This document shows, piece by piece, positions 6,375 to 47,335 of a stretch of 47,433 nt of DNA; positions within the stretch are counted from its first letter, which is position 1; each line of letters begins with the position of its first letter. Position numbers and translations under genes: made by a program. The stretch comes from a virus: positions 1 through 47,433 of IMG/VR virus record IMGVR_UViG_3300028654_000026; one strand, 5' to 3'. Below the pieces are notes generated by a model. The model saw only the letters and a program-made list of their open reading frames with translations. It did not search any database and had not been told where the DNA came from.

Positions 6375-6697
6375 AGCTCTGGCTCCTCGCCATCAGTATT
6401 CCGATCGTCCTCGCTGTCCGTGCTCTCAGGTAGCCCAATACCAATCGTTGAATAGTAGTGAGCCCATAGCCCACCGATGCGCGTGCGTACCTTATCTTCG
6501 GTCTCTTCGTGCAGCCCATAGAACGCACTGGGCGAGTAAAGATGCGTTTCCGCGTACAACTCAACGCCGTCAGCATCGGTCGACTTTTTCGGGTGCGGCA
6601 CCTGCACCCGAATCATCTGCACGCCAGCAAATGATACCTCAGTCACGAGACCATGGTGCTGTCGGTGCCCCATGAGCTCGATAGTTCCCCATGTCAC
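6371..6697 (-). CDS. Conserved-type phage protein (WGTIELMGHR family)
   Basis: 108 residues. The N-terminal pattern GTIELMGHRQHHGLVTEVSF, followed by RVQVPHP and a later LYSPSAFYGLHEET, is familiar from short phage proteins of unknown function in early operons. The C-terminus is acidic and probably disordered. No enzymatic motif is seen. It overlaps both neighbours by 4 bases. Confidence 0.6.
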   Translation of the reverse strand: MTWGTIELMGHRQHHGLVTEVSFAGVQMIRVQVPHPKKSTDADGVELYAETHLYSPSAFYGLHEETEDKVRTRIGGLWAHYYSTIGIGLPESTDSEDDRNTDGEEPEL

Positions 6698-7419
6698 GGC
6701 TCACCCCACGAGACGCCGACGAGCTTTCCGTCCTTGACTTCGACGCTCGTGGGTTTCTCGAGTACGATCACGTGACCGGGCAGAACCCAGAGCGCGAATG
6801 CGTACTGACCGAATTCAGCAAACGCTTTGATGCGCGCAGCCTTGTCGGCATCAACTTCGACGATCCCGATCTCAACTGGGAACAGATAAAACGCCATCCA
6901 GTCAGTGTCCCCGAGTGAGTCCCAGAGTGAGTCCTCGAGTGAGTCCCCGAGTGAGTCCCAGAGTGAGGCCCAGAGTGAGGCCCCGAGTGAGGCCCAGTCA
7001 GTGTCCCCGAGTGAGGCCCCGAGTGAGGCCCCGAGTGAGGCCCCGAGTGAGGCCCCGAGTGAGTCCCAGAGTGAAACCCCGAGTGAGGCCCTGAGTGAGT
7101 CCCCGAGTGAGGCCCTGAGTGAAACCCCGAGTGAGGCCCTGAGTGAGTCCCAGAGTGAGGCCCAGAGTGAGGCCCAGGGTGAGGCCCAGAGTGAGGCCCC
7201 GAGTGAGGCCCCGAGTGAGGCCCAGAGTGAGGCCGCCTCTTTCGGCGTCTTTACCCAATGGATCTCATACTTGACCAGTGCCGGGGCCACTATCACCGAG
7301 ATCGCCGACTCTGCCGCTGTCTTGTCAGTGACGGTACTAGTGGCCGCGTCGAACATCCGCTGACGGAACTGCTCGAGGGTAAGTTGCTGCTCGTCGGTTA
7401 GCTTATCGAGTTTGGCCAT
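6694..7419 (-). CDS. Tetrapeptide-repeat protein with DUF6745-like C-terminus
   Basis: 241 residues in three parts. Residues 1-60 are a mixed helical N-terminus. Residues about 62-173 are 28 tandem tetrapeptides of the form (A/D/V)SL(G/W/R), with two DTDW units at positions 20 and 28. Residues about 174-241 ([13 protein letters not shown] ... [20 protein letters not shown]) are a conserved-looking end resembling DUF6745 proteins, which also carry W/D-S-V/L repeats. Gly/Trp/Arg alternation gives a regular surface, perhaps a solenoid. Because unit number can change by slippage in multiples of 12 bp, length could vary without frameshift. Function unknown; start overlaps the previous stop as TAATG. 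Confidence 0.75.
6898..7238. repeat. 12-bp minisatellite, about 28 units
   Basis: On the + strand the unit is close to CCCCGAGTGAGG with CAG/CCG and GGCC/GTCC variants, repeated without interruption. GTCAGTGTCCCCGAGTGAG recurs at about 6901 and 6998, marking an internal higher-order duplication. Since 12 is a multiple of three, every frame on both strands stays open through it, producing long spurious ORFs. Confidence 0.92.
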
Positions 7420-21199: not shown

Positions 21200-21625
21200 T
21201 TATGGGCACGCGACGGGACCGCATGCCGTTTGGGCTGCAGCTTTGGTGGTTTGGTTCATGAGACACGACATGTCTTGCGTGAACCGAGAATCAGTCGTGT
21301 GCAGTGCGCACAGTCGAACGCATGACGACTGGTCAACGTTGCAGGTCAAGGACTGCGCCCGCGCACAGTACGCTTGGCAGGCGGTCGCGGTGCTCGGGGC
21401 TGAAGATGAGCCGCCCGTTGCCGCTTTGCCACCTGTCGCGCTCTTGCCTCCGGTTGCTGCCTTGCCACCCGTGGCAGCTCTGCCCCCTGTGCCCGCGTTG
21501 CCGCCGGTAGAGCACGGGCACGGTGGGCACTTTTTCGAGGTGGCATCAGCACAGGAACCGGTTTGAGTTGTTGGGCACCCAAACAGACAGAGCGCCGTGA
21601 CAATAGCCAATAATAGGCGATTCAC
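21200..21625 (-). CDS. Phage-encoded lipoprotein with ATGGK repeats
   Basis: 141 residues. A lipoprotein signal (MNRLLLAIVTALCLFGC) is followed by a CPPCPC segment and repeats TGGNAGTGGRAATGGKAATG continuing to about residue 72. The Cys-rich C-terminus (ACQAYCARAQSLTCNVDQSS, CVRLC, ACGPVAC) is probably disulphide-bonded. This style is common in Myxococcota lipoproteins. Position next to the holin-like gene suggests an outer-membrane spanin or a host-surface (exclusion) protein. Overlaps the previous gene by 4 bases. Confidence 0.65.
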   Translation of the reverse strand: MNRLLLAIVTALCLFGCPTTQTGSCADATSKKCPPCPCSTGGNAGTGGRAATGGKAATGGKSATGGKAATGGSSSAPSTATACQAYCARAQSLTCNVDQSSCVRLCALHTTDSRFTQDMSCLMNQTTKAAAQTACGPVACP

Positions 21626-28892: not shown

Positions 28893-29479
28893 CGCGGAGC
28901 CCCCGGTGCGCTGGGTGCGAGTTTTCCGACCTGGCCCGGGTCAAGTAACTGATCGGTCAAATCCTTGATGCGCTTGTCGAGCGGGTCGAGCGGGCTATCT
29001 TGCGAGGCCTCAAGCTTCGCAGACGCCGCACGAGGCTTAGTCACTATCTGCACGAACTCGATGGGCACGATGTAAACGCCCTTGGTACCCGCCGGCTCCT
29101 CTTGGGGTTCGTTCTCCACCATGCACGACGTAATGCCGAGCGGCACCAATTGCGGGTGCCAAATGGTCATCGCCAGCGCCGGATCGTAATTGGTGCTCGA
29201 TGCACTATTGACCGCACCACGACGCGGTACCGTGTTGATCAAGACTCGCCACGTCTGCCAATCTTCCCAGTCCTGAACGCTGGCAAGAATCAAGTTCGTC
29301 TTGAAGTGAGCCAGCTTGCGACCAAAAAACACCACGAACGCAAAGTCGATTCCGTACCCGCGACGCTCATCAATTGCGCGAGCGATAGAGGCGCCCACCG
29401 GTCCGACACACACGCCCGGGCTCCAATTGTTGGCCAGCTTGAACTTGTTGACCGGGTTGCGGATAGGGTCCCAGCTCAT
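28889..29479 (-). CDS. Tail/baseplate protein
   Basis: 196 residues. SWDPIRNPVNKFKLANNWSP ... RRGYGIDFAFVVFFGRKLAH ... DWQTWRVLINTVPRRG look like a compact beta-rich virion protein. The C-terminal 40 residues are helical and charged. It sits between tape measure and hub, where proteins that attach the tape measure to the baseplate occur. No family recognised. Confidence 0.55.
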   Translation of the reverse strand: MSWDPIRNPVNKFKLANNWSPGVCVGPVGASIARAIDERRGYGIDFAFVVFFGRKLAHFKTNLILASVQDWEDWQTWRVLINTVPRRGAVNSASSTNYDPALAMTIWHPQLVPLGITSCMVENEPQEEPAGTKGVYIVPIEFVQIVTKPRAASAKLEASQDSPLDPLDKRIKDLTDQLLDPGQVGKLAPSAPGAPR

Positions 29480-31410
29480 GCCGCTGCTCCCTGCTGAATC
29501 GTGAGACCCTCGAGTGCTTGCGCAATCAGATCAGTAAGTTCACCGATCGACAGCGTCACCTTATCCGACTTGCTCAATCCGTGCAGGTGCAGCTGACCGA
29601 TCGTCGGATGCGCTTGACCGCCACCGGATGACGCGCGTCCCCCACCTCCAAACGCGGCACCACGAGCGCCGAAGCCAGCAGCACCGCCAGCATCGAACGT
29701 AGCGCGCTGAATGTCGCGAGTCGTCCGCACGAGCTCCGGTTGACCCTTTTTCATGCCGATCCCCTGACCCGCAGTTAAGTTGAGCCCGAGACGTTCCCAT
29801 TTCTTCGAAGGGGAATGACTCTCTTGCTCTTTCTTCGCTGCATCATTGGCGGCACGTTGGGCAGCACGGGCAGCTTCGATTAGCGCTGGCTTTCCTTTTT
29901 CGATTCCGTCAATGAGCCCCTGGATCATGTTGAATCCAACGCCCATGGTGTCGCTACCATGTACGAGCTGCTTATAGGCTGCGTCCGCTGCATCATCCGC
30001 GGCTTGCCAAGCCTTGTCCTGATTACCGATCCCGCCGTGGAACGTGACCGCCTGCATCAACTTGCCAGCGACCTGTGCAAAACGAATCACAGTCGTAAGA
30101 CCGTCAGCAAGCACTAGCGTGGCCTGGCCAGCGCGAAGAATTCCCACCGCGAGGCTTGCTACACCGTTGATAGCCGTCTCGAGCAGCTGTCCAGCGTCCC
30201 CGAGTCCAAGGTTCTTGAATGACAGTACACCCTTGAGTGTCTTGAACTTGATCGCCGCCTCGAGGGCTACGATGGTCACGCCCTGCAGAAACCGCTTTAC
30301 CGTTAGCGATCCCTTTTCAGCACTGGACGACAGCGGGTCGAAGAACGTGCCAAAGATTGCGCGCCACGCCTTCGATGTCTCGGTGCCCTTGCTGAACAGC
30401 CCGAGCACGTTGTGCAGTCCGCGCAGCAGCGGCTCAACCTTCAGACCCGTGAATAGCTGCGTGAACCCATAACGGGCTTTGGCGATCTGCACAGGCAGCG
30501 CCAACATTTGCTGCTGCACAATCGGTCCGAACTTGGACTTCATGATCGCCGCGGCACCCGTCACACTGCGCCCGAACATGGCAGCGCCCGCTACCATGTT
30601 GATGCCCATCTGCCGTCCCTCGTCACCCGCAGCGGCCTCGCCTAGTGCCACGGCCTCTAGCGATTGCTTGAGCGCGTTGCCACGCAGTCCGAATCGATAA
30701 AGCTCGGCATTGAGTGCGACGACACGATCGCGCGTGATTGGCACCGCATTCGAAACATCGTCGATCGCGGTCTGCATCTGCGCAGCGTTACCCGGCGCGC
30801 GCTGCATGATGCCGAAGAACCCGCGCCACACTTTGGTCATGCCCTCGATCGAGAGCCGTTCAGAGCGGTACGCGTCCGCCGATGAGACAGCCATCTTGGC
30901 GAGTCCGATAACACTCTTCGCAACCGCCAAGTCGAACACGACCAAAGCAGCAACAGCGGCCAGTGTCACGCCGATAAGTCCAGCCCTACCGAGAGTGCCG
31001 ACAAGTGTTTGCGTCTTCGATGTCAGCCCAGAGACGGGACCACCAGCAATCGAAGCACCAGCTGCAAGTGCCGAGAGCCCCGACGACGCGCCTTTCGCGG
31101 CCGCCGTGGTTTTCTTCATCGCTTCGGTTGCAATGCCAAGTCCCCCCTTCATACCGAGCAAAGCAACTGTCTTCTGACCAATTACTTTCCTCTCTTCGAG
31201 CATGCGATTCTTCAGATCGACCCCCATCTTGGTCGTCTGCAGCCCGGCAGTCTTCAGGCCCTTGTAGGCCAGCTGCATCTTGTTGAGCGAGAGGAATTCC
31301 TTGTCGAGCTCACCGCGCAGTTTTTCGATCGTCTTGGCCTGAGCTTGCGTTTCAGGAACGCCCTCAGCCTTCAACTCGGTAACGAATACTGCGCGGTTTT
31401 CGTCAGCCAC
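29476..31410 (-). CDS. Tail tape measure protein
   Basis: 644 residues, GTG start inside the end of the frameshifted chaperone. The N-terminus is a coiled coil (KTIEKLRGELDKEFLSLNKM). Ala/Gly-rich hydrophobic helices lie about 145-175 and 390-450. The C-terminal signature ESHSPSKKWERLGLNLTAGQ is typical of tape measures. By the usual 0.15 nm per residue, the tail would be near 95 nm. It spans the tube lumen and sets length. Confidence 0.85.
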   Translation of the reverse strand: MADENRAVFVTELKAEGVPETQAQAKTIEKLRGELDKEFLSLNKMQLAYKGLKTAGLQTTKMGVDLKNRMLEERKVIGQKTVALLGMKGGLGIATEAMKKTTAAAKGASSGLSALAAGASIAGGPVSGLTSKTQTLVGTLGRAGLIGVTLAAVAALVVFDLAVAKSVIGLAKMAVSSADAYRSERLSIEGMTKVWRGFFGIMQRAPGNAAQMQTAIDDVSNAVPITRDRVVALNAELYRFGLRGNALKQSLEAVALGEAAAGDEGRQMGINMVAGAAMFGRSVTGAAAIMKSKFGPIVQQQMLALPVQIAKARYGFTQLFTGLKVEPLLRGLHNVLGLFSKGTETSKAWRAIFGTFFDPLSSSAEKGSLTVKRFLQGVTIVALEAAIKFKTLKGVLSFKNLGLGDAGQLLETAINGVASLAVGILRAGQATLVLADGLTTVIRFAQVAGKLMQAVTFHGGIGNQDKAWQAADDAADAAYKQLVHGSDTMGVGFNMIQGLIDGIEKGKPALIEAARAAQRAANDAAKKEQESHSPSKKWERLGLNLTAGQGIGMKKGQPELVRTTRDIQRATFDAGGAAGFGARGAAFGGGGRASSGGGQAHPTIGQLHLHGLSKSDKVTLSIGELTDLIAQALEGLTIQQGAAA

Positions 31411-31615
31411 GCAGCGCCCCCACAGCAGACGCCAGGCCTTGCATGCCTTCAGCGACCTTATGCAGTGATTGGATTGCGTCTGCCACGATTAGAGCTCCTA
31501 CCTGTTGCCGAACCCACCGCTCATCTTCTAACGACGGCTCGATGCCGAAGAATTCAAGCAGGTATTCGGCCGCTACCGATGCATTCTCAAACGCGTCCTG
31601 ACGAGCCTCCGCTAT
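31403..31615 (-). CDS. -1 frameshift extension of the tail assembly chaperone
   Basis: After AAA at 31617-31615 the -1 frame stays open for 70 codons to a TGA at 31403-31405. The reading is ATA GCG GAG..., giving IAEARQDAFENASVAAEYLL, then EFFGIEPSLEDERW and a helical end. There is no usable start of its own. The slippery heptamer GGGAAAA at 31615-31621 lies exactly before the zero-frame stop TAG. This is the gpG/gpGT arrangement: a minor 207-residue fusion made by -1 slippage. The extension ends 8 bases inside the tape measure gene. Confidence 0.85.
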   Translation of the reverse strand: MAEARQDAFENASVAAEYLLEFFGIEPSLEDERWVRQQVGALIVADAIQSLHKVAEGMQGLASAVGALRG

Positions 31616-32025
31616 TTTCCCAACAGGTTTGACTGGTCAACTGCAACGAGCAGACTCGCTGCGTTGATCACAGCGTCGCGAGCGTTCGGGAAATCCAGGT
31701 ACATCTTCTCAGCTTCAACCGCCGTCGGGTACTCAACTGCCACCGCGCTGAATTCCGACTGCAGCTCTTCGGTCAAGTTGCGATTCGACGTTGCGGTCGA
31801 AATCTTGTTGTACACGACTGCTGGCGCCTTCTTCACTGCGATGAAACGCCCATCAGGAAGGAACACAACAGCGAGGTTGATGCCGAGCGTCCTGCCCGTG
31901 CTCTCCTCAATCTCGCCCAGTTTGATCTCGCTGTCGATGCGCGTTTCCTTCACAGCCGCGTCATATGCCGCTAGCTTGTCCGCTCGCTTCTTCTTGATGT
32001 CTGCCAGTTGCTCTTGCTTGTTCAT
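31612..32025 (-). CDS. Tail assembly chaperone (gpG-like), zero-frame product
   Basis: 137 residues; AAAGGAG upstream of ATG. A helical basic N-terminus (MNKQEQLADIKKKRADKLAA) is followed by a small beta domain (LAVVFLPDGRFIAVKKAPAV) and helices with YPTAVEAEKMYLDFPNARDA. It ends LLGK-stop, with the slippery GGGAAAA coding the last two residues. It probably coats the tape measure during tail assembly. Position between tube and tape measure is the standard one. Confidence 0.8.
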   Translation of the reverse strand: MNKQEQLADIKKKRADKLAAYDAAVKETRIDSEIKLGEIEESTGRTLGINLAVVFLPDGRFIAVKKAPAVVYNKISTATSNRNLTEELQSEFSAVAVEYPTAVEAEKMYLDFPNARDAVINAASLLVAVDQSNLLGK

Positions 32026-32053: not shown

Positions 32054-32578
32054 TCAGCCGCCCTCTTCGCTCGAGTCGTAGAGGGTAAATCCGTTCACCT
32101 TCTTGCGAAGGCACTGGAAGCCAATCTCTTCGTAGAGACCAGCTGGGCCACGTTCCCACTGCCCAGAGGGTCCCTTGACGGTCACGTCTTCCCACTCATA
32201 GAAAGCCTGCAACGGACCTTCGACAACTTGCACCGTCCAGTACATGGTCACGTTGCCGTAGCTGCGCTTATCAGGAGCCGCGCGCCCTAGCATCGTGATG
32301 AGTGAGTCGAAACCGGCATTCACGCCAGCCGATGCAGCGTGTTGCAGAAACCGCACCTTGGGCTCACCGGGGTTGTACTCGCCCGCCGAATACCCCATGG
32401 GCGCTTGTGCACGGTTCTGACCGTAAATGAGCTCCCGTTCGCGTTGCTCGTCGCCGGTCTGGAAGTTGTTGAACCCGAACATTCGTTGGCCACCGCCGCC
32501 AAACTCCGGATTGATCTCGATAATGAAGATGATCGAACCCCAACTAACTAGGTTCGAATTGAACCGCTGCTTATCCAT
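32054..32578 (-). CDS. Tail tube protein
   Basis: 174 residues from ATG at 32578, overlapping the sheath stop by 8 bases. It has the alternating beta/loop character of myovirus tube proteins (MFGFNNFQTGDEQRE, YWTVQVVEGPLQAFYEWEDV, GFQCLRKKVNGFTLYD). Assigned from its place directly after the sheath and before the chaperone; sequence features agree but are not diagnostic. Confidence 0.7.
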   Translation of the reverse strand: MDKQRFNSNLVSWGSIIFIIEINPEFGGGGQRMFGFNNFQTGDEQRERELIYGQNRAQAPMGYSAGEYNPGEPKVRFLQHAASAGVNAGFDSLITMLGRAAPDKRSYGNVTMYWTVQVVEGPLQAFYEWEDVTVKGPSGQWERGPAGLYEEIGFQCLRKKVNGFTLYDSSEEGG

Positions 32579-34400
32579 TTGGCGCACCAATCTGCGAGAC
32601 CATCGCAACTGTGAGGTTGATCGTCTTCACGTAGATCTTTGTGACGAACTCCGCCTCGACCGTCAAAGGAGGAGCCGTGCCAGTCACCGGATCGATCGAC
32701 GTGAGGTTGTCGTCGGGCGAGATGGTTGTGAGTTGGTCACTCGCGTAACCCGGGCTCATGATCGCCCCGTTCGCTGCTTTATTCGCACCCTTCTCGAGCG
32801 CGTTACGGTCCGAGTCCCGCATCTTGCCCGTGGCTGAATTCGCAAAGAAGTCAGCGCTAAGGCGCCGTCGGAAGTACGTCCGCAGCGAGCGAGCGAGTAG
32901 ATTGCCCACCTCAAGATGCGGCATCATCGTCACGCCACTCGATCCGCCACCGTAAGCCGTGAACATGCGCGGGTTGTTGACATAGACGCCCGTCTCGTTC
33001 TCGTGCGTGCGCAGAACACCGGCGCGCAAATCATCGAGCCCCGGATCGTGCTGCTCGTCGTGGCAATCTGTGTTGCCGTTGTCGTCCTCGAGTGTGACTC
33101 CTGGAAGTGGCCCGAGCGTGACTTGCGCGATATCCGTTTGCGGATTGACGCTCGCCTCTCGAGGCGCCACCACAACCACCGGGCTCCACTTGTACGTGCG
33201 ACCACTGACCGCCGAGAGCACCTTGCAGTCGAAGCCCCAGATTGACCCGAACTCGAGTGCAATCGAATTCCACTCGGTCTTGAATGCTGCTTGGTAGTCC
33301 GCGTCAGACTCGGCAACGGACACCGTGGGACCGCCGACAATCGAGCGGCCCTGCATGCGCCAGCCGCCCATCCAACCGCGCTCTTTGCCGGTAAGGAACG
33401 CTTGCACGAACGCACTGTCGATGATCTGCGCCAGGCTCGCGGTAACTACGCCGCACACTGCAGCCCACTCCCAAGCGCCCGAGTAACGGAACGCCGCATC
33501 GAGAGCCGCCGTGATTGACTCCGCCGTGAACATGGGAGCGTTGAGCAGCACAGCAAGCTCAGCACCGGGCGCGATGGTCTGTCCCGCACTGCCAAGCGTA
33601 ACCGAGGCCCCACCAGAATCGGGGAACGTGATCTCGTGCGCCGTGCCCAAGTCCGTCACCTGTGACCAGGTTCGACCATCGTCGGTCGAGGTCTGATAGG
33701 TGATGCCGGCCGTGCCAAGTGTGCCACCGTCCACACAGCGCCACCTCGCTTGATAGTCGCCATCCGGATAGGTTGCAGCGTCAACGGTCGCAACCGCCGT
33801 GCAGGTCGAACCCGGGTACTGACTCGTGTCCAGCGTACCGAAGCTGCCAGCCGCAACAACGTTGGCAAACAGGCTAATGATCTCGCTCGCCGCAAGAGTG
33901 CCGGCTGCAAGAGACAACGTCAGGTTCTCGGTATCGCCCAAAGGAACCACGATCGAATTCGCAGTGCCTAGCGGAGTGAGCGCGCCATAGTTGTCACCGC
34001 CGTCTGTAGATATTCGGTAGGTGATGCCCGCTGTGCCAACGGTGCCACCCGAGGCAATCATCGCGATCACCTCCGCGTTCTGGCTCGTGGCGCTGCCCGT
34101 ATGCACGGTCACAACACTGCTGCCGTGCCCTGTCGTCCGAGTGACGTCAGAGAATGCTGACACGCTCGACGAGTCCACTCGGACGCACACGACCTGCAAC
34201 CGGTAATTCTTGATCGCGTAGCAAGCGGCCTCAACAAGAGGACCGCTAGCAAACGTCGAGATGACGTCACTGCCGCGAGTCTTAGCGATGGGCGTTGCGA
34301 TTGGGCCTGCATCGGCTGGACCGATGATCATCAGCTGTTTGCCGGGCAATGCCTGTATTGACAGCCCGTTTCGACGGAACACATTGACCGACGGAATCAT
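32571..34400 (-). CDS. Tail sheath protein
   Basis: 609 residues. The start MIPSVNVFRRNGLSIQALPG, then a P-loop-less alpha/beta domain (VISTFASGPLVEAACYAIKN), and the C-terminal part (RSLRTYFRRRLSADFFANSA) resemble contractile-tail sheaths. The middle (about 90-290) has two insertions of the kind GTVGTAGITYRISTDGGDNY / GTLGTAGITYQTSTDDGRTW, an internal duplication of a surface domain. It forms the contractile outer tube. Overlaps neighbours by 4 and 8 bases. Confidence 0.82.
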   Translation of the reverse strand: MIPSVNVFRRNGLSIQALPGKQLMIIGPADAGPIATPIAKTRGSDVISTFASGPLVEAACYAIKNYRLQVVCVRVDSSSVSAFSDVTRTTGHGSSVVTVHTGSATSQNAEVIAMIASGGTVGTAGITYRISTDGGDNYGALTPLGTANSIVVPLGDTENLTLSLAAGTLAASEIISLFANVVAAGSFGTLDTSQYPGSTCTAVATVDAATYPDGDYQARWRCVDGGTLGTAGITYQTSTDDGRTWSQVTDLGTAHEITFPDSGGASVTLGSAGQTIAPGAELAVLLNAPMFTAESITAALDAAFRYSGAWEWAAVCGVVTASLAQIIDSAFVQAFLTGKERGWMGGWRMQGRSIVGGPTVSVAESDADYQAAFKTEWNSIALEFGSIWGFDCKVLSAVSGRTYKWSPVVVVAPREASVNPQTDIAQVTLGPLPGVTLEDDNGNTDCHDEQHDPGLDDLRAGVLRTHENETGVYVNNPRMFTAYGGGSSGVTMMPHLEVGNLLARSLRTYFRRRLSADFFANSATGKMRDSDRNALEKGANKAANGAIMSPGYASDQLTTISPDDNLTSIDPVTGTAPPLTVEAEFVTKIYVKTINLTVAMVSQIGAPNG

Positions 34401-41922: not shown

Positions 41923-42064
41923 TCGGTCCACCGCGATCGAGCTTCTTGCTGATTGCCTTCAGCTCCGCCAAGATGGCGTCAATCTTCCAGTACCAAAGCA
42001 CCCACGCGCGAGCGGCGAGGAAGATGACGAGCGCAACGATTAGAACTCCAAGTGCAGCGGTCAT
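41915..42064 (-). CDS. 49-residue single-pass membrane protein
   Basis: Starts MTAALGVLIVALVIFLAARA, a clear N-terminal membrane helix, followed by an amphipathic segment (WKIDAILAELKAISKKLDRG). It overlaps the lipoprotein stop by 4 bases and the next gene by 8. Together with the lipoprotein it may form a two-component envelope unit such as a miniature spanin-like or exclusion pair; that is inference. Confidence 0.55.
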   Translation of the reverse strand: MTAALGVLIVALVIFLAARAWVLWYWKIDAILAELKAISKKLDRGGPNV

Positions 42065-42501
42065 ATCTTCGGCTCACACATGTTGCAGGCATCGCACAAC
42101 AACCCCGTAGCGCACGACGTCACCTGCGAGACCGAGTTGAAGATGCAAGGACAGTAAAGCTCACCGAGCTGGGGGCACGACGTGTGCGGTCCGACGTAGT
42201 TGGTCGATGTAGCGGTCACCACGCAGATCGCAGTAGCCATCGACGACCCGCCAGTTGCGTTGGCTCCACCCGTTGCAGCGACGCGCCCACCAGTCGCGAG
42301 CGCGCCTCCCGTTGCTTTCATTCCACCGGTTGCGAGTGCGCCACCGGTTGCCGCTCCACCCGTGGACGAGGCAGAGTCGCCACCCGTGGCGATACTGGAC
42401 TGGAAAACTTCCGCGTTCACCTCGCCACCGTCCACGATAATATTCGTGGTCGAAGTACTCGAGCAAGCCACCAAACACAGTGCAATCGCCATAATCCTCA
42501 T
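42061..42501 (-). CDS. Second ATGG-repeat lipoprotein
   Basis: 146 residues from ATG at 42501. Lipoprotein signal MRIMAIALCLVACSS; then repeats (SSTGGAATGGALATGGMKAT and onwards, to about residue 92) and a Cys-rich C-terminus (CPQLGELYCPC, CATGLLCDACNMCEP). Same architecture as the 21200-21625 protein with little sequence identity outside the repeats. It is coupled to a small membrane protein. Candidate outer-membrane-anchored surface protein. Confidence 0.62.
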   Translation of the reverse strand: MRIMAIALCLVACSSTSTTNIIVDGGEVNAEVFQSSIATGGDSASSTGGAATGGALATGGMKATGGALATGGRVAATGGANATGGSSMATAICVVTATSTNYVGPHTSCPQLGELYCPCIFNSVSQVTSCATGLLCDACNMCEPKI

Positions 42502-42573
42502 AACCCAAGTATCCACGCCAAACTGCCGCGACACCAGCGGTTTTTGAACCACCCGCGCAACCACCCGGTATCA

Positions 42574-42861
42574 CTACTCATCTAGCTTGCGCTCCTGCCG
42601 CTTGAGCATCTCGATGGTTGCCTTGGTCCCATGTAGCGCCTCAAAATATTTGAGCGAATCGGGCACCTTCACTTCGCCCGGCCTGTGGTGGTACCAGGGG
42701 GTTCTGGATGCGCGACGGCCCGCACGGTTTTGACGCTTAGCTCGCTCCAATAGCTCGTTTTCGTCGGGGAGCTTTTCTGGCTCTGCCGTTGCGCTGTCAA
42801 TTGCACCGAGCACACGAACGAGGCCTCGACGCAGAGCGAGCAGCAAAGGGCGCGCGTTCAT
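42574..42861 (-). CDS. Small basic hypothetical protein
   Basis: 95 residues, Arg/Lys-rich and helical (PDENELLERAKRQNRAGRRA, LKYFEALHGTKATIEMLKRQ). It overlaps the glycosyltransferase stop as ATGA. No family recognised. Possibly a DNA- or capsid-associated small protein. Confidence 0.5.
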   Translation of the reverse strand: MNARPLLLALRRGLVRVLGAIDSATAEPEKLPDENELLERAKRQNRAGRRASRTPWYHHRPGEVKVPDSLKYFEALHGTKATIEMLKRQERKLDE

Positions 42862-44945
42862 GGCGCCTCAACTGTTGCCGTGAGCTCTTCGTACAGTAGG
42901 CAATAGTTTAGTGCACATTCGTGCATAGTAGAACCGGTCCAGCTCACCACAATTCTACTGCTCGGCGGTCGCAACGCTCCAAGCTCACACGCTAGAGACG
43001 AAGCGTTTCCCCACTGGTACCAACCAACGCCGACGACAACATCGTCTAGCCGCTCGCGCATTGTCGGCACGCTCGCAACCATCACAGGGCAACCGGCGGC
43101 CAGGCACTCGTCCACCGCCATTCCGTACGCCTCCTTTCGCGCCACTGCGGGCACAGCCACGTCAACGCTCTGCAGCAGCTGCGGCAATTCTTCTGGCGAA
43201 TAACGACCATGAAACCTCACGTGTTCAAGCTTGCTACGATCTGCAAACTCCACCCACTCACCGAGCACCGAGAATTCAAAACGGTTATCGTACTTGAGTA
43301 CTCGAGCGGCATCAGCAAACGCGTCCCACCCCTTCTCGGGCAGCACGCCGCCGACCCATGCCACCCTAACCCTATCCGTTGGGCGGTACGTATCAGCAAA
43401 CGGGTAGCTCGGTACGCCATGGGGGATCAACACTGTCTGAAGTTTTGCCCCGTCAATTCGATGACAACTCACATTTCGCTCGTAGCGCTCACGTAGAGAT
43501 TCACTCGGGAACACGATGCGGTCGACGTAACCCAACATCGACCCCACCTCGAGCGGTCGACGCTCAAGAAGCATCGGAAAGCTATCCGAGTGTCTCCCCT
43601 CCACTCGCACGGTCCACTCTTGCTCGACGCACTCTCGGCATTGCTGACAATCCTCGGCCGCGTCGCGTCCGCAGCTCCACCCCGCTGTCAGGTACGACGG
43701 GCAAAGGTAGAAGTCGTCGTGCACCGATAGGACCGTTGGGCAATATGCTCGCGCGATCTCGGGCAAACGAAACGTGCCAAAACCGCCGAGGTGTTGGAAG
43801 TGCACCACCTCCGGAGCCAGCGACTCGAGGCAATCGCAAAACCACTTCTCCACGTGCTCGGCGCGCAGCTGGAAAGGGAAGATTCCAAGGTCGATTTGCG
43901 ACTGCACCAGATGCGGCGCCATCACGATGTGAAGCTCACCGAACTCACCGACATGAGTTGAGGATTCGAGCGCCGCCTCCCGTGTCGGGTACATCACCAC
44001 GACGTCGAGCGACTCGCACAGTTCTTTGACGAGTCGCCGCTGAAACACCTCGAGCCCACCGAGCTTGCCCCAATGGTGGCAGACGAAGAGCACGCGCTTA
44101 CGATTACCGGTGCGACGTTGCCACAATCGAATTGCGATACTGACACGGTGTTGTGTCTGTTTGCCCTCGAGACACCAGTTATCAACGACCTTGTCGAATC
44201 CTGGATACTGCTCCAGAAACATCGCCTGGTGTTCTTCGCGTAGCTTTCGGGCGCGCCACCCAAATGACGCATGGTGTTCGTGCCACACGAAGAGGTTGTC
44301 AGCGAGAATACACGAGAACCCGGCAGCCTTGGCGCGCACGCTCCAATCGGTTTCTTCACCGTAACCCTTGCCCCACTTCGGATCGAAGCTCCCGACGGCC
44401 TCGAGCGCTTCACGAGTCAGCATCATGCAAAAACCGACGGCGCAAGGAATCTCGGGGAAAGACTCGCCTGAGGTCTCTTCGACGATGTGATCCATAGCCT
44501 CGGGGTCAAGCCAGTCAGGAAGGTCATTGTCGTAAGCGTTCGGTACCGAGTAGTGGCTGGCGTTATTCGACAGTGGAGATATCGCACCGACGCGCACCCC
44601 GCGTTCAGTCCCTTGCGCTCGCGCCTCGTCGATACGCTCGACCCACCTCGGAGGCACTATCGTGTCCGAGTTGAGCAAGATGGGCTCGGTACCAGTCGCC
44701 AGCGCTTCACGAATTCCCTCGTTCGCAGTCTTGACGAAGCCCAGATTCTTCGAATGAAACGTCACGATCATTCGCTCGCTCCAAGTAAAGTCTTGCAAAT
44801 AGCGAATGACGTCGCCCTCTCGACTGCAATCGTCAATCACTAGGATGCGATGCTCTTTCGGTGTATTCCTCAGCACCGAATCGATGCACTTCTTGACGTG
44901 CTCGAGCGCTCCAAAAACTGGGATGATGATGGTGTACTTGTTCAT
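42858..44945 (-). CDS. Two-domain glycosyltransferase (GT2-type plus GT4-type)
   Basis: 695 residues. Residues about 1-270 are a GT-A family 2 domain: YTIIIPVFGALEHVKKCIDS, ILVIDDCS, NLGFVKTANEG, ILLNSDTIVP (the DxD-like NSD) and KGYGEETDWSVRAKAAGF. Residues about 285-695 are a GT-B domain: VLFVCHHWGKLGGLEVFQRR, VAWVGGVLPEKGWDAFADAA and, near 630, KEAYGMAVDECLAAGCPV (E-x7-E, GT4). It should make or extend a glycan with two linkages. In a phage late operon it may glycosylate virion proteins, DNA or host surface glycan. Overlaps terminase by 4 bases. Confidence 0.85.
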   Translation of the reverse strand: MNKYTIIIPVFGALEHVKKCIDSVLRNTPKEHRILVIDDCSREGDVIRYLQDFTWSERMIVTFHSKNLGFVKTANEGIREALATGTEPILLNSDTIVPPRWVERIDEARAQGTERGVRVGAISPLSNNASHYSVPNAYDNDLPDWLDPEAMDHIVEETSGESFPEIPCAVGFCMMLTREALEAVGSFDPKWGKGYGEETDWSVRAKAAGFSCILADNLFVWHEHHASFGWRARKLREEHQAMFLEQYPGFDKVVDNWCLEGKQTQHRVSIAIRLWQRRTGNRKRVLFVCHHWGKLGGLEVFQRRLVKELCESLDVVVMYPTREAALESSTHVGEFGELHIVMAPHLVQSQIDLGIFPFQLRAEHVEKWFCDCLESLAPEVVHFQHLGGFGTFRLPEIARAYCPTVLSVHDDFYLCPSYLTAGWSCGRDAAEDCQQCRECVEQEWTVRVEGRHSDSFPMLLERRPLEVGSMLGYVDRIVFPSESLRERYERNVSCHRIDGAKLQTVLIPHGVPSYPFADTYRPTDRVRVAWVGGVLPEKGWDAFADAARVLKYDNRFEFSVLGEWVEFADRSKLEHVRFHGRYSPEELPQLLQSVDVAVPAVARKEAYGMAVDECLAAGCPVMVASVPTMRERLDDVVVGVGWYQWGNASSLACELGALRPPSSRIVVSWTGSTMHECALNYCLLYEELTATVEAP

Positions 44946-47335
44946 TGGTGTCTGCCTTTCTTGATATTCCTCATGTACGTGTTGAACGCGTCTCGCGGGT
45001 TGACCGCTTTCACTTGTGACTCTGCATCTTGCTGCTCAGCTTCTGTCGTATCCTCAGCCACCGGGAACGCGTGGTGCATGTACGCCGCATAGGCAAACAC
45101 GCGCAGCATATCCAGGCGGTCTGGGCTTCGGTGCAGAACCTTGCGGTATCCTTCGGGGCCATCCTTGCGCGTCGCAGATCGAATCGAGTCGTACCAGACA
45201 CCATCAACACGACGACGAACGAAGTACCACTTTGAGTGATTCATCTCTTGGCGCAACTTGTCATCGTGCGGGACGGCCCCACCTCGAGCAAGCCACCGTG
45301 CCAAGTGATAATGCGCCTCGTCGCCCACGAGCTCGAAGTCAAACTTCGCGGGTGCCTGCTGACCGAAGTACACCGGCACGACCTCGAACAACACCTTCTC
45401 GTGAGCAGCCAAGCGCGTCGTTGCCAAGTAGTCCTCGAGGCGATTCACCACCTTGTGTCCAACGCCGTCAGCATCCACGGCAACGATTGCCACCTCGTTG
45501 CGGTGCTCGCGGTGTCGCTCGATGAGCTCAATGACTAGGTCCAGATAATCTTCTTTCGTCCACGCGCGACCGACGCGCTTCTCAAGTAACTTGAAACCAC
45601 GCACGGCACCCGCACACGCCTCGTCGCCCTCGCCACTCTCGCCCGCTGGATCGATAGGAATTACGAGCCGTCCGCGCGCTTCGGTTGCGGAGTAGTTATC
45701 GACGTCTTGCGAGCGCAGTATATGCTGCGGTTGGTAGATACACAGCTCGTCAAACTTCGGGTACAGCCCGCGGTTGTTGATGAGGTAGATCGGGTTCTCT
45801 CGGCCACGGTCGTCAGACAGCTCATCCGCTTTCAGCTCGGCAGCATCGGGTAGGTAAGGCAGCTTAGTGCGTGCTGCAACCTCACCGCTCAAGTTCACGA
45901 CGTTCCAACCGTACAACGCTCGAGTCTTCTCGTCGTTGACCGCGTCCCACATCGGATGTTCTGCACTGTCGAGGCAGTTACCTGGCCCAAAGAAACGCGC
46001 TTCGGGTCCCGCGATATTTCCCTTCCATGCGTTGAACAGCTCGTAACTCAGCCCCGAAAACTCGTCGCAAATAACGAGGATATGAATGCCGTGGTACCCA
46101 CCGAGCGACGTTGCCTCTTTGCCAGTGATGCCGATGATGAAGCGTTCCTTGTCATCGCTCCAGATCCCCTTGGTCGGCGTTTCGCATGGCTCCGCATCAA
46201 TCACCTGAGAGTGCGGGCAAGGTCGAGCGGTGACACCAGCGCGCCTGCAGTCGAGACAGATCCCTGATCGGCTCAGGCATCGAAGAATCTCCGCCCAGTC
46301 CTGGGTTCGCAGCTGCACGCCCGTGAAGTTGGAAACACATACGCGACCATCCTCCCAGCAGCAGTAACGCCACCATGACAGCCAACCAACGCCCTTAGTC
46401 TTACCAACACCACGTGCACTGGGTCCCACTGTGCGCTTGTGGTCTCGCACCGATTCAAGCAGCGTCACCTGGTCGTCGTCGGTACCGTCCGGATCTTCCC
46501 ACGGGTCCTCGCCAAGGATGGTGCGCACGAAGCCCACCGGGTCGTTTTGAAATTCGGTGCAAGGGAACGATATCGATCGAACGCACTCGAGGGAGCGCGC
46601 CAGGCGATCTGCAAATGGACCGCTACCAGTGAGCGCACCGATGACGAGCAAACGGTCGTGAGGCAACGGCTTGAGCAGCGCGCACACCGTCGTCTCGGTG
46701 GACGCCCAAGCTCCCGTGCGCATGAGGTCCTCAGGCTCGTCGCGCCGCTCGTACTTTTCGATCACGCGCGCAGTCGACCGTCTGAACTGCGAGTGACGAC
46801 GGTAGAGCTCGGACTGGACGTCGGGGTCGATGCTCGTTTGACGCTCGACGGACTCAGGCAGCAGCTCTCGCATCGTCGCCAATGACTTGGAAATCTCGAC
46901 GGCTGGTCCAGACGTTGGCGGCTCGAGAAGCACCGAGCGCAACTCGGGGTGAGTGCAGGCACCGAGCACACACGAGCGCATTGCCTGGTACTGCATGTGC
47001 CCAACGAGGCGGTCGATCTCGTTGAGAGCCCCAACGTGGGACTCGATGACGCCCGTGCAGTCGGCCACCGTCGCCAGCGCGCGAGATAGCCATGCGACCT
47101 CGGGGTTCGTCTTTAGGTCGCTCGACCCGCGACGAGGTGACGGCGCTTCCTGCTCGGCTACCGGGTAAGCCCTAGCCAGTCTCGCTAGGAAGTCCGCAGA
47201 CGGGGGCCGCTTCCCGTTGCGCACTAGGGAAGCCGCGGTGCGCGAAACCCCCATTGCCGTGGCGACGGTGGCTATTCCCCAGCGGTCGCAGAGGGTGGCG
47301 AGGCGTTCGAGGGCTACCGAAATCTCAGGACTCAT
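44942..47335 (-). CDS. terL: Terminase large subunit with N-terminal HTH domain
   Basis: 797 residues. Residues 1-60 are an XRE/Cro-like HTH (LATLCDRWGIATVATAMGVS, RTAASLVRNGKRPPSADFLA). Residues about 75-290 are mostly helical. The ATPase has Walker A GPSARGVGKT (304-313) and Walker B HILVICDEFSG (418-428), with a Cys/His insertion C360-C363-C373-H375. The RNase-H-like nuclease shows VIPIDPAGESGEGDE and IVAVDADGVGH. No separate small subunit gene was found, so the N-terminal part may recognise DNA. It packages the genome; upstream GTAACG repeats are a possible target. Confidence 0.85.
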   Translation of the reverse strand: MSPEISVALERLATLCDRWGIATVATAMGVSRTAASLVRNGKRPPSADFLARLARAYPVAEQEAPSPRRGSSDLKTNPEVAWLSRALATVADCTGVIESHVGALNEIDRLVGHMQYQAMRSCVLGACTHPELRSVLLEPPTSGPAVEISKSLATMRELLPESVERQTSIDPDVQSELYRRHSQFRRSTARVIEKYERRDEPEDLMRTGAWASTETTVCALLKPLPHDRLLVIGALTGSGPFADRLARSLECVRSISFPCTEFQNDPVGFVRTILGEDPWEDPDGTDDDQVTLLESVRDHKRTVGPSARGVGKTKGVGWLSWWRYCCWEDGRVCVSNFTGVQLRTQDWAEILRCLSRSGICLDCRRAGVTARPCPHSQVIDAEPCETPTKGIWSDDKERFIIGITGKEATSLGGYHGIHILVICDEFSGLSYELFNAWKGNIAGPEARFFGPGNCLDSAEHPMWDAVNDEKTRALYGWNVVNLSGEVAARTKLPYLPDAAELKADELSDDRGRENPIYLINNRGLYPKFDELCIYQPQHILRSQDVDNYSATEARGRLVIPIDPAGESGEGDEACAGAVRGFKLLEKRVGRAWTKEDYLDLVIELIERHREHRNEVAIVAVDADGVGHKVVNRLEDYLATTRLAAHEKVLFEVVPVYFGQQAPAKFDFELVGDEAHYHLARWLARGGAVPHDDKLRQEMNHSKWYFVRRRVDGVWYDSIRSATRKDGPEGYRKVLHRSPDRLDMLRVFAYAAYMHHAFPVAEDTTEAEQQDAESQVKAVNPRDAFNTYMRNIKKGRHQ

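Follow-up and report, generated by a model that had tools for sequence, protein, structure and literature searches.

Xu, Hendrix and Duda are said to have described a conserved tail-gene frameshift in 2004. Frameshifting of the tail chaperone is familiar in phages: among long-tailed phages the G-T frameshift is widely conserved (PMC5009743), 6-7% frameshifting has been measured in an HK97-like chaperone cluster (PMC3711429), and the corresponding shift in phage Mu is quoted as −2 in PMC2628397. Published tail-chaperone slip sites lie at a mean distance of 26 nt (SEA-PHAGES) or 36 nt (Xu set) from the stop codon (PMC10885494), while 'shifty stops', in which the slippery codon stands immediately 5′ of a stop codon, have long been known in other settings (Weiss 1987, as cited in PMC5009743).

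The locus described here comes from an IMG/VR virus record of an uncultured phage, analysed over 47,433 nt (hereafter, the window). As in the lambda gpG/gpGT system, a chaperone gene directly precedes the tape measure gene, a −1 heptamer of the GGGAAA class lies near the 3′ end of the chaperone gene, a −1 ORF without a start codon ends at the tape measure, and two products are predicted. Unlike lambda, the phage would carry a contractile tail, and its slip site is flush with the stop codon. With the gp41 region of Mu it shares a Mu-like portal, a gpT capsid protein, a contractile tail module and a frame change in the chaperone that precedes the tape measure, although the shift would be −1 rather than −2. 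What sets it apart is the flush placement of the slip site, shared by diverse relatives.

The tail module and its relatives

The features under discussion all lie on the minus strand:

32571..34400, minus: contractile tail sheath, DUF2586-like, 609 aa (PF10758, 4e-5; phrog_907 tail sheath, 0.003)
32054..32608, minus: putative tail tube gene, assigned purely by position and size
31612..32025, minus: predicted gpG analogue, the zero-frame tail assembly chaperone of 137 aa, from an ATG to a TAG
31615..31621, minus: slippery heptamer G_GGA_AAA (GGGAAAA), identified by sequence and phase, conserved in relatives
31612..31614, minus: TAG stop of the zero frame, immediately next to the heptamer
31403..31618, minus: extension in the −1 frame (gpT analogue); AAA 31618-31616 is the first of its 71 codons, TGA 31405-31403 its stop
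29476..31410, minus: tape measure protein, 644 aa, GTG start 31410-31408 (PHROG phrog_1686, 6e-13; phrog_1272, 3e-9)

The gene order is thus sheath, putative tube, chaperone, −1 ORF and tape measure, the tube being a positional call; this gene matches no Pfam or PHROG family, and its real start probably lies downstream of the longest-ORF start. The sheath resembles annotated sheaths of Meiothermus phage MMP17 and Myxococcus phage Mx4, and its PF10758 score of 4e-5 falls under that family's curated cut-off. The Mu-like module also includes a portal (PF06074), an S49 protease, a gpT-like capsid protein and baseplate J. Because a sheath gene is present, we regard this as a contractile-tailed phage whose gpG/gpGT arrangement belongs to a Mu-like myovirus module. 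The initial annotation had named the pair known from long-tailed phages; that arrangement stands, and the refinement concerns its setting, a contractile module in which no sequence similarity to lambda is detectable. Elsewhere in the window, a two-domain glycosyltransferase (GT2 + GT1-type; 42858-44945) lies between the portal and terminase-like genes, and a putative terminase ORF of 797 aa (44942-47335), assigned by sequence reading and position, carries a fused N-terminal helix-turn-helix domain (PF13560/PF01381). Twenty-seven copies of a 12-bp tandem repeat (6909-7234) encode S-L-W/G-A/D-S repeats within an ORF at 6694-7419 (minus strand) that has no Pfam match.

Searching isolated phages by tblastn with the chaperone and tape measure gave no meaningful matches. 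Single-protein scans of viral contigs returned near-identical relatives only, and an alignment of sheaths was needed; it found 49 viral-contig loci with 23-100% identity to the window sheath over the best segment. Sheath relatives also occur in Myxococcota MAGs and genomes. A scan of genome contigs gave three loci only, and loci from Myxococcota genomes that share the chaperone arrangement are L090/L091 (with GGGAAAG before TAG), L097, L098 and L102. Two lipoprotein-like ORFs of the window (42061-42564 and 21200-21625) are rich in ATGG/TGG repeats, a style of lipoprotein seen in myxobacteria. Given the Myxococcota sheath relatives and these TGG-rich ORFs, the host is probably a myxobacterium (Myxococcota).

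Two reading frames at the end of the chaperone gene

Read on the minus strand, the final zero-frame codons are TTG (31623-31621), GGA (31620-31618), AAA (31617-31615) and TAG (31614-31612), with GGGAAAA in the X_XXY_YYZ phase that −1 tandem slippage requires. This is the gene end, with its heptamer at the stop, that the initial annotation had described; its coordinates were correct, and the strand, left unstated there, is minus. The two strands of the 47 kb together contain GGGAAAA twice. The −1 frame has a stop a little way before the TAG and then none until the TGA at 31405-31403, where its end overlaps the GTG start of the tape measure by 8 nt (GTGGCTGA). The 70 stop-free codons previously said to run to just inside the tape measure are those beyond the AAA read after the slip, which brings the count to 71. 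In the close relatives L001/L006 and L002/L005, whose chaperones are 96% and 94% identical to that of the window, both frames and the exact slip site are kept and the tape measure starts with ATG; the slip site and about 17 nt on each side are nearly or fully identical in these two relatives, which vary elsewhere.

The arrangement extends well beyond this clade. Some 40 loci have an ORF of chaperone size, mostly 104-170 aa, that stops about 150-220 nt short of the tape measure, with another frame filling the gap; in nearly all of them that frame is −1 and is open to about the tape-measure start, and most of the roughly 40 readable relatives have both frames. It had been anticipated that alignment with related phages would show both frames and the heptamer conserved, and homologues do retain a slippery site together with both frames. 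The MMP7 clade (L009, L050, L051, L058, L059; e.g., L009:7800-7990) has the same layout of chaperone and extension, but its open frame is +1 (or −2) and a conserved TTT_CG stands upstream; the direction of the shift thus varies inside one sheath family.

Translations of the −1 frame from different lineages align as one conserved domain, K-I-x-E-L-R ... C-L-L-A-A-L-G ... V-G-A-L-L-V-A-E ... I-R-K. Substitutions in this frame fall 29/13/87 by codon position (87/129, or 67%, at third positions), and codon changes are 74 synonymous versus 36 nonsynonymous; these counts summarize selected close pairs, with no formal test. Together they indicate that the −1 domain is under purifying selection, as judged by sequence comparison. 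In the AlphaFold2 model (pLDDT 94) the domain consists of three helices. Foldseek against BFVD gave nothing significant for it and comparison with Pfam and PHROG no convincing match; we therefore claim no known fold or family, and these missing matches are no evidence of a new fold.

Such a domain could also be the product of a separate gene, translated from a start codon of its own or by ribosomes that re-initiate after the stop. A GGAGG just past the stop might be read in this light, and short ORFs at this position are annotated as genes in their own right in MMP7 and Mx4. However, in the clade of the window, and in many others, no ATG, GTG or TTG occurs in the −1 frame at 90 nt or less from the stop, and no start codon in this frame is conserved across relatives; the first residues of the conserved domain (KIxEL) coincide with the slip site, and the GGAGG itself codes conserved A-E-A/L residues of the −1 frame. 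We consider a separate gene highly unlikely.

The predicted fold of the zero-frame product is that of a tail assembly chaperone. The window protein itself matches no Pfam or PHROG family, while its relatives weakly match DUF6848 (eleven in Pfam, best 4e-6), phrog_5128 or phrog_20303, and one matches PF10109 at E 0.08. For the AlphaFold2 model (pLDDT 88), the first three PDB rows of Foldseek are the HK97 tail chaperone 2ob9 and YqbN 3klu (E 0.01-0.2), the best solved-structure matches, at just 8-14% identity; unlike either, the window chaperone would have an extra long N-terminal helix. Viral structure matches include several annotated tail assembly chaperones, none individually significant. 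VIA-align gives Z 9.3 for 3fgx, 5.4 for 2ob9 and 5.3 for 3klu, against Z of 2.8 or less for rows of other proteins, with the exception of 5ir0, a PICI protein, at Z 4.4. A Z of about 5 is modest, and the specificity of the structural matches makes the stronger argument for a chaperone fold.

Slip sites and flush stops across the relatives

To compare slip sites, chaperones were clustered at 70% identity into 27 clusters, with 355 other ORFs from these loci as background; outside these counts are L055, where the chaperone was not identified, and L017, whose contig ends within the −1 frame. AAAA directly followed by a stop ends 15 of the 27 chaperone clusters and none of the 355 other ORFs (Fisher 6e-20); the full GGGAAAA in this position ends 9/27, the window included, again versus 0/355 (Fisher 1e-11). 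Because the clusters share ancestry, these p-values exclude chance but give no count of independent origins. Slippery heptamers of the X_XXY_YYZ form do arise randomly in any genome, but coincidence is hardly credible for a motif confined in this way to one gene end and paired with a conserved −1 protein that shows third-position bias.

Variant sites occupy the same position in other members (a slash marks the start of the stop codon): GGGAAAG/TAA, GGAAAAA/TAG (with GGAAAAA in L022, L026 and L027), GCAAAA/TAG (GCAAAA in L018, L021 and L023), TCAAAA/TAA (TCAAAA in L030 and L040) and runs of seven or eight A. Those runs, found in Mx4-like relatives (L010, L052, L053), would suit transcriptional slippage as the source of the second frame; the window, however, has just four A, and most relatives have four or five, making this very unlikely as an explanation of the locus. 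Separate starts, re-initiation, transcriptional slippage and chance were all rejected, on conservation, the missing start and the short A run. The heptamer reported as canonical is indeed in phase in the window, but strict conservation did not hold among relatives, where A_AAA before UAA or UAG is steadier.

Published means of 26-36 nt to the stop (PMC10885494) make a flush site an unusual habit for a group of phages, and sequence comparison indicates that diverse relatives retain it. It suggests a refinement, rather than a contradiction, of programmed −1 frameshifting: with AAA in the P site and UAR waiting in the A site, a single tRNA-Lys may slip back on A_AAA before a release factor engages. 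GGG upstream would then help without being required, and the G:GT ratio would be set by competition with release factor 1. We regard this as a tentative reading, not the one we favor. In its support, A_AAA before UAR is retained in several relatives that have lost the X_XX half (those with GCAAAA, TCAAAA and GGAAAAA listed above). On the sheath tree, the three states, GGG at a flush stop, a flush stop without GGG and a non-flush stop, require 9 changes, and the upstream GGG changes at least 5 times on well-supported branches. Within one pair with nearly identical sheaths, L029 has GGGAAAA/TAG but L030 (2464-2476) has TCAAAA/TAG, having naturally lost the first half of the heptamer.

The choice of stop codon bears on the same reading. 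Flush stops comprise 8 UAG, 8 UAA and 0 UGA, whereas UGA makes up 72% of the stops of other genes (Fisher 6e-9). With flush stops limited to UAA and UAG, every flush site has ATA as the codon after the slip, yet ATA accounts for 2.6% of Ile codons in these loci. There is, however, another possible cause for the absence of UGA: a flush UGA would put ATG into the −1 frame and give K-M in place of K-I. In L031, L034 and L036, where the stop is not flush, the same K-I is encoded by AAA ATC. The flush stop may thus be retained either for a role in recoding or as the simplest termination that fits K-I without ATG, two options that sequence alone cannot separate. Also against the single-tRNA reading are the full heptamer in 9 of 27 clusters, the window among them, and the 1-3 sense codons that separate slip site from stop in L031, L034, L036, L037, L047 and L010.

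Strong Shine-Dalgarno-like or stem-loop elements may instead aid the A_AAA sites. Upstream pairing with the anti-Shine-Dalgarno sequence averages −7.7 kcal/mol across clusters versus −3.9 in background windows (Wilcoxon 8e-6), and AAGGAGGT or AGGAGGT ends 6 nt before A_AAA in L016, L021, L023 and L025. Downstream folding across relatives likewise averages z −1.6 versus −0.4 at control positions (p 5e-4). At the window's own site, a Shine-Dalgarno-like element upstream is not detectable (duplex −2.0 kcal/mol, no better than background) and downstream structure is no stronger than in shuffles (z about −0.5 to +1). The correctly anchored values for this clade come from the near-identical L005, and window folds tried at several offsets and lengths, anchored 2 nt downstream of the true site, also gave z near 0; we therefore claim no stimulator there. 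A GGCTCG/CGAGCC stem lies a few nucleotides downstream of the slip site in the window and both close relatives.

A probable programmed −1 frameshift in a contractile-tailed phage

Programmed −1 ribosomal frameshifting of the tail assembly chaperone in a contractile-tailed, Mu-like phage is our preferred reading, with a probability of roughly 93%. It is well supported by sequence comparison, namely by both frames, the site and its conservation, selection on the −1 frame and the predicted fold; the occurrence of slippage, its rate and the roles of the products in assembly are inferred. The gpG/gpGT-type frameshift first proposed for this locus gains support from the conserved −1 domain under purifying selection and from the predicted tail-chaperone fold.

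Most ribosomes would terminate at the TAG and yield the short gpG-like chaperone. In a minority, both tRNAs would re-pair one base back, tRNA-Gly on GGG instead of GGA and tRNA-Lys again on AAA, and these ribosomes would bypass the TAG, read AAA ATA GCG and onward, and produce a gpGT-like fusion with a 71-residue helical C-terminal domain. GGGAAAA is no more than a moderate slippery motif in E. coli (PMC4066793). By analogy with lambda (PMC5009743), the chaperone part may form a coat on the tape measure, and the −1 domain may recruit tube subunits, with both products leaving before the tail is completed.

An active part for the flush UAA/UAG stop in the recoding signal of this phage group, with GGG as an optional aid, is possible but doubtful. 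As in shifty stops, the slippery codon stands immediately 5′ of the stop. The +1 case of shifty-stop frameshifting is prfB; unlike that type, the sites described here would shift in the −1 direction, use only UAA or UAG, and serve a structural rather than an autoregulatory role.

These observations extend the tail-chaperone frameshift to poorly known contractile phages, probably of Myxococcota. They also offer about 27 natural sites at one homologous position (GGGAAAA, GGGAAAG, GGAAAAA, GCAAAA, TCAAAA and A7-A8 runs), many of them flush, a series that makes the A-site stop codon directly testable as a pausing element of programmed −1 frameshifting. If the stop does play such a part, the speed of termination would set the chaperone ratio and, hence, tail assembly.
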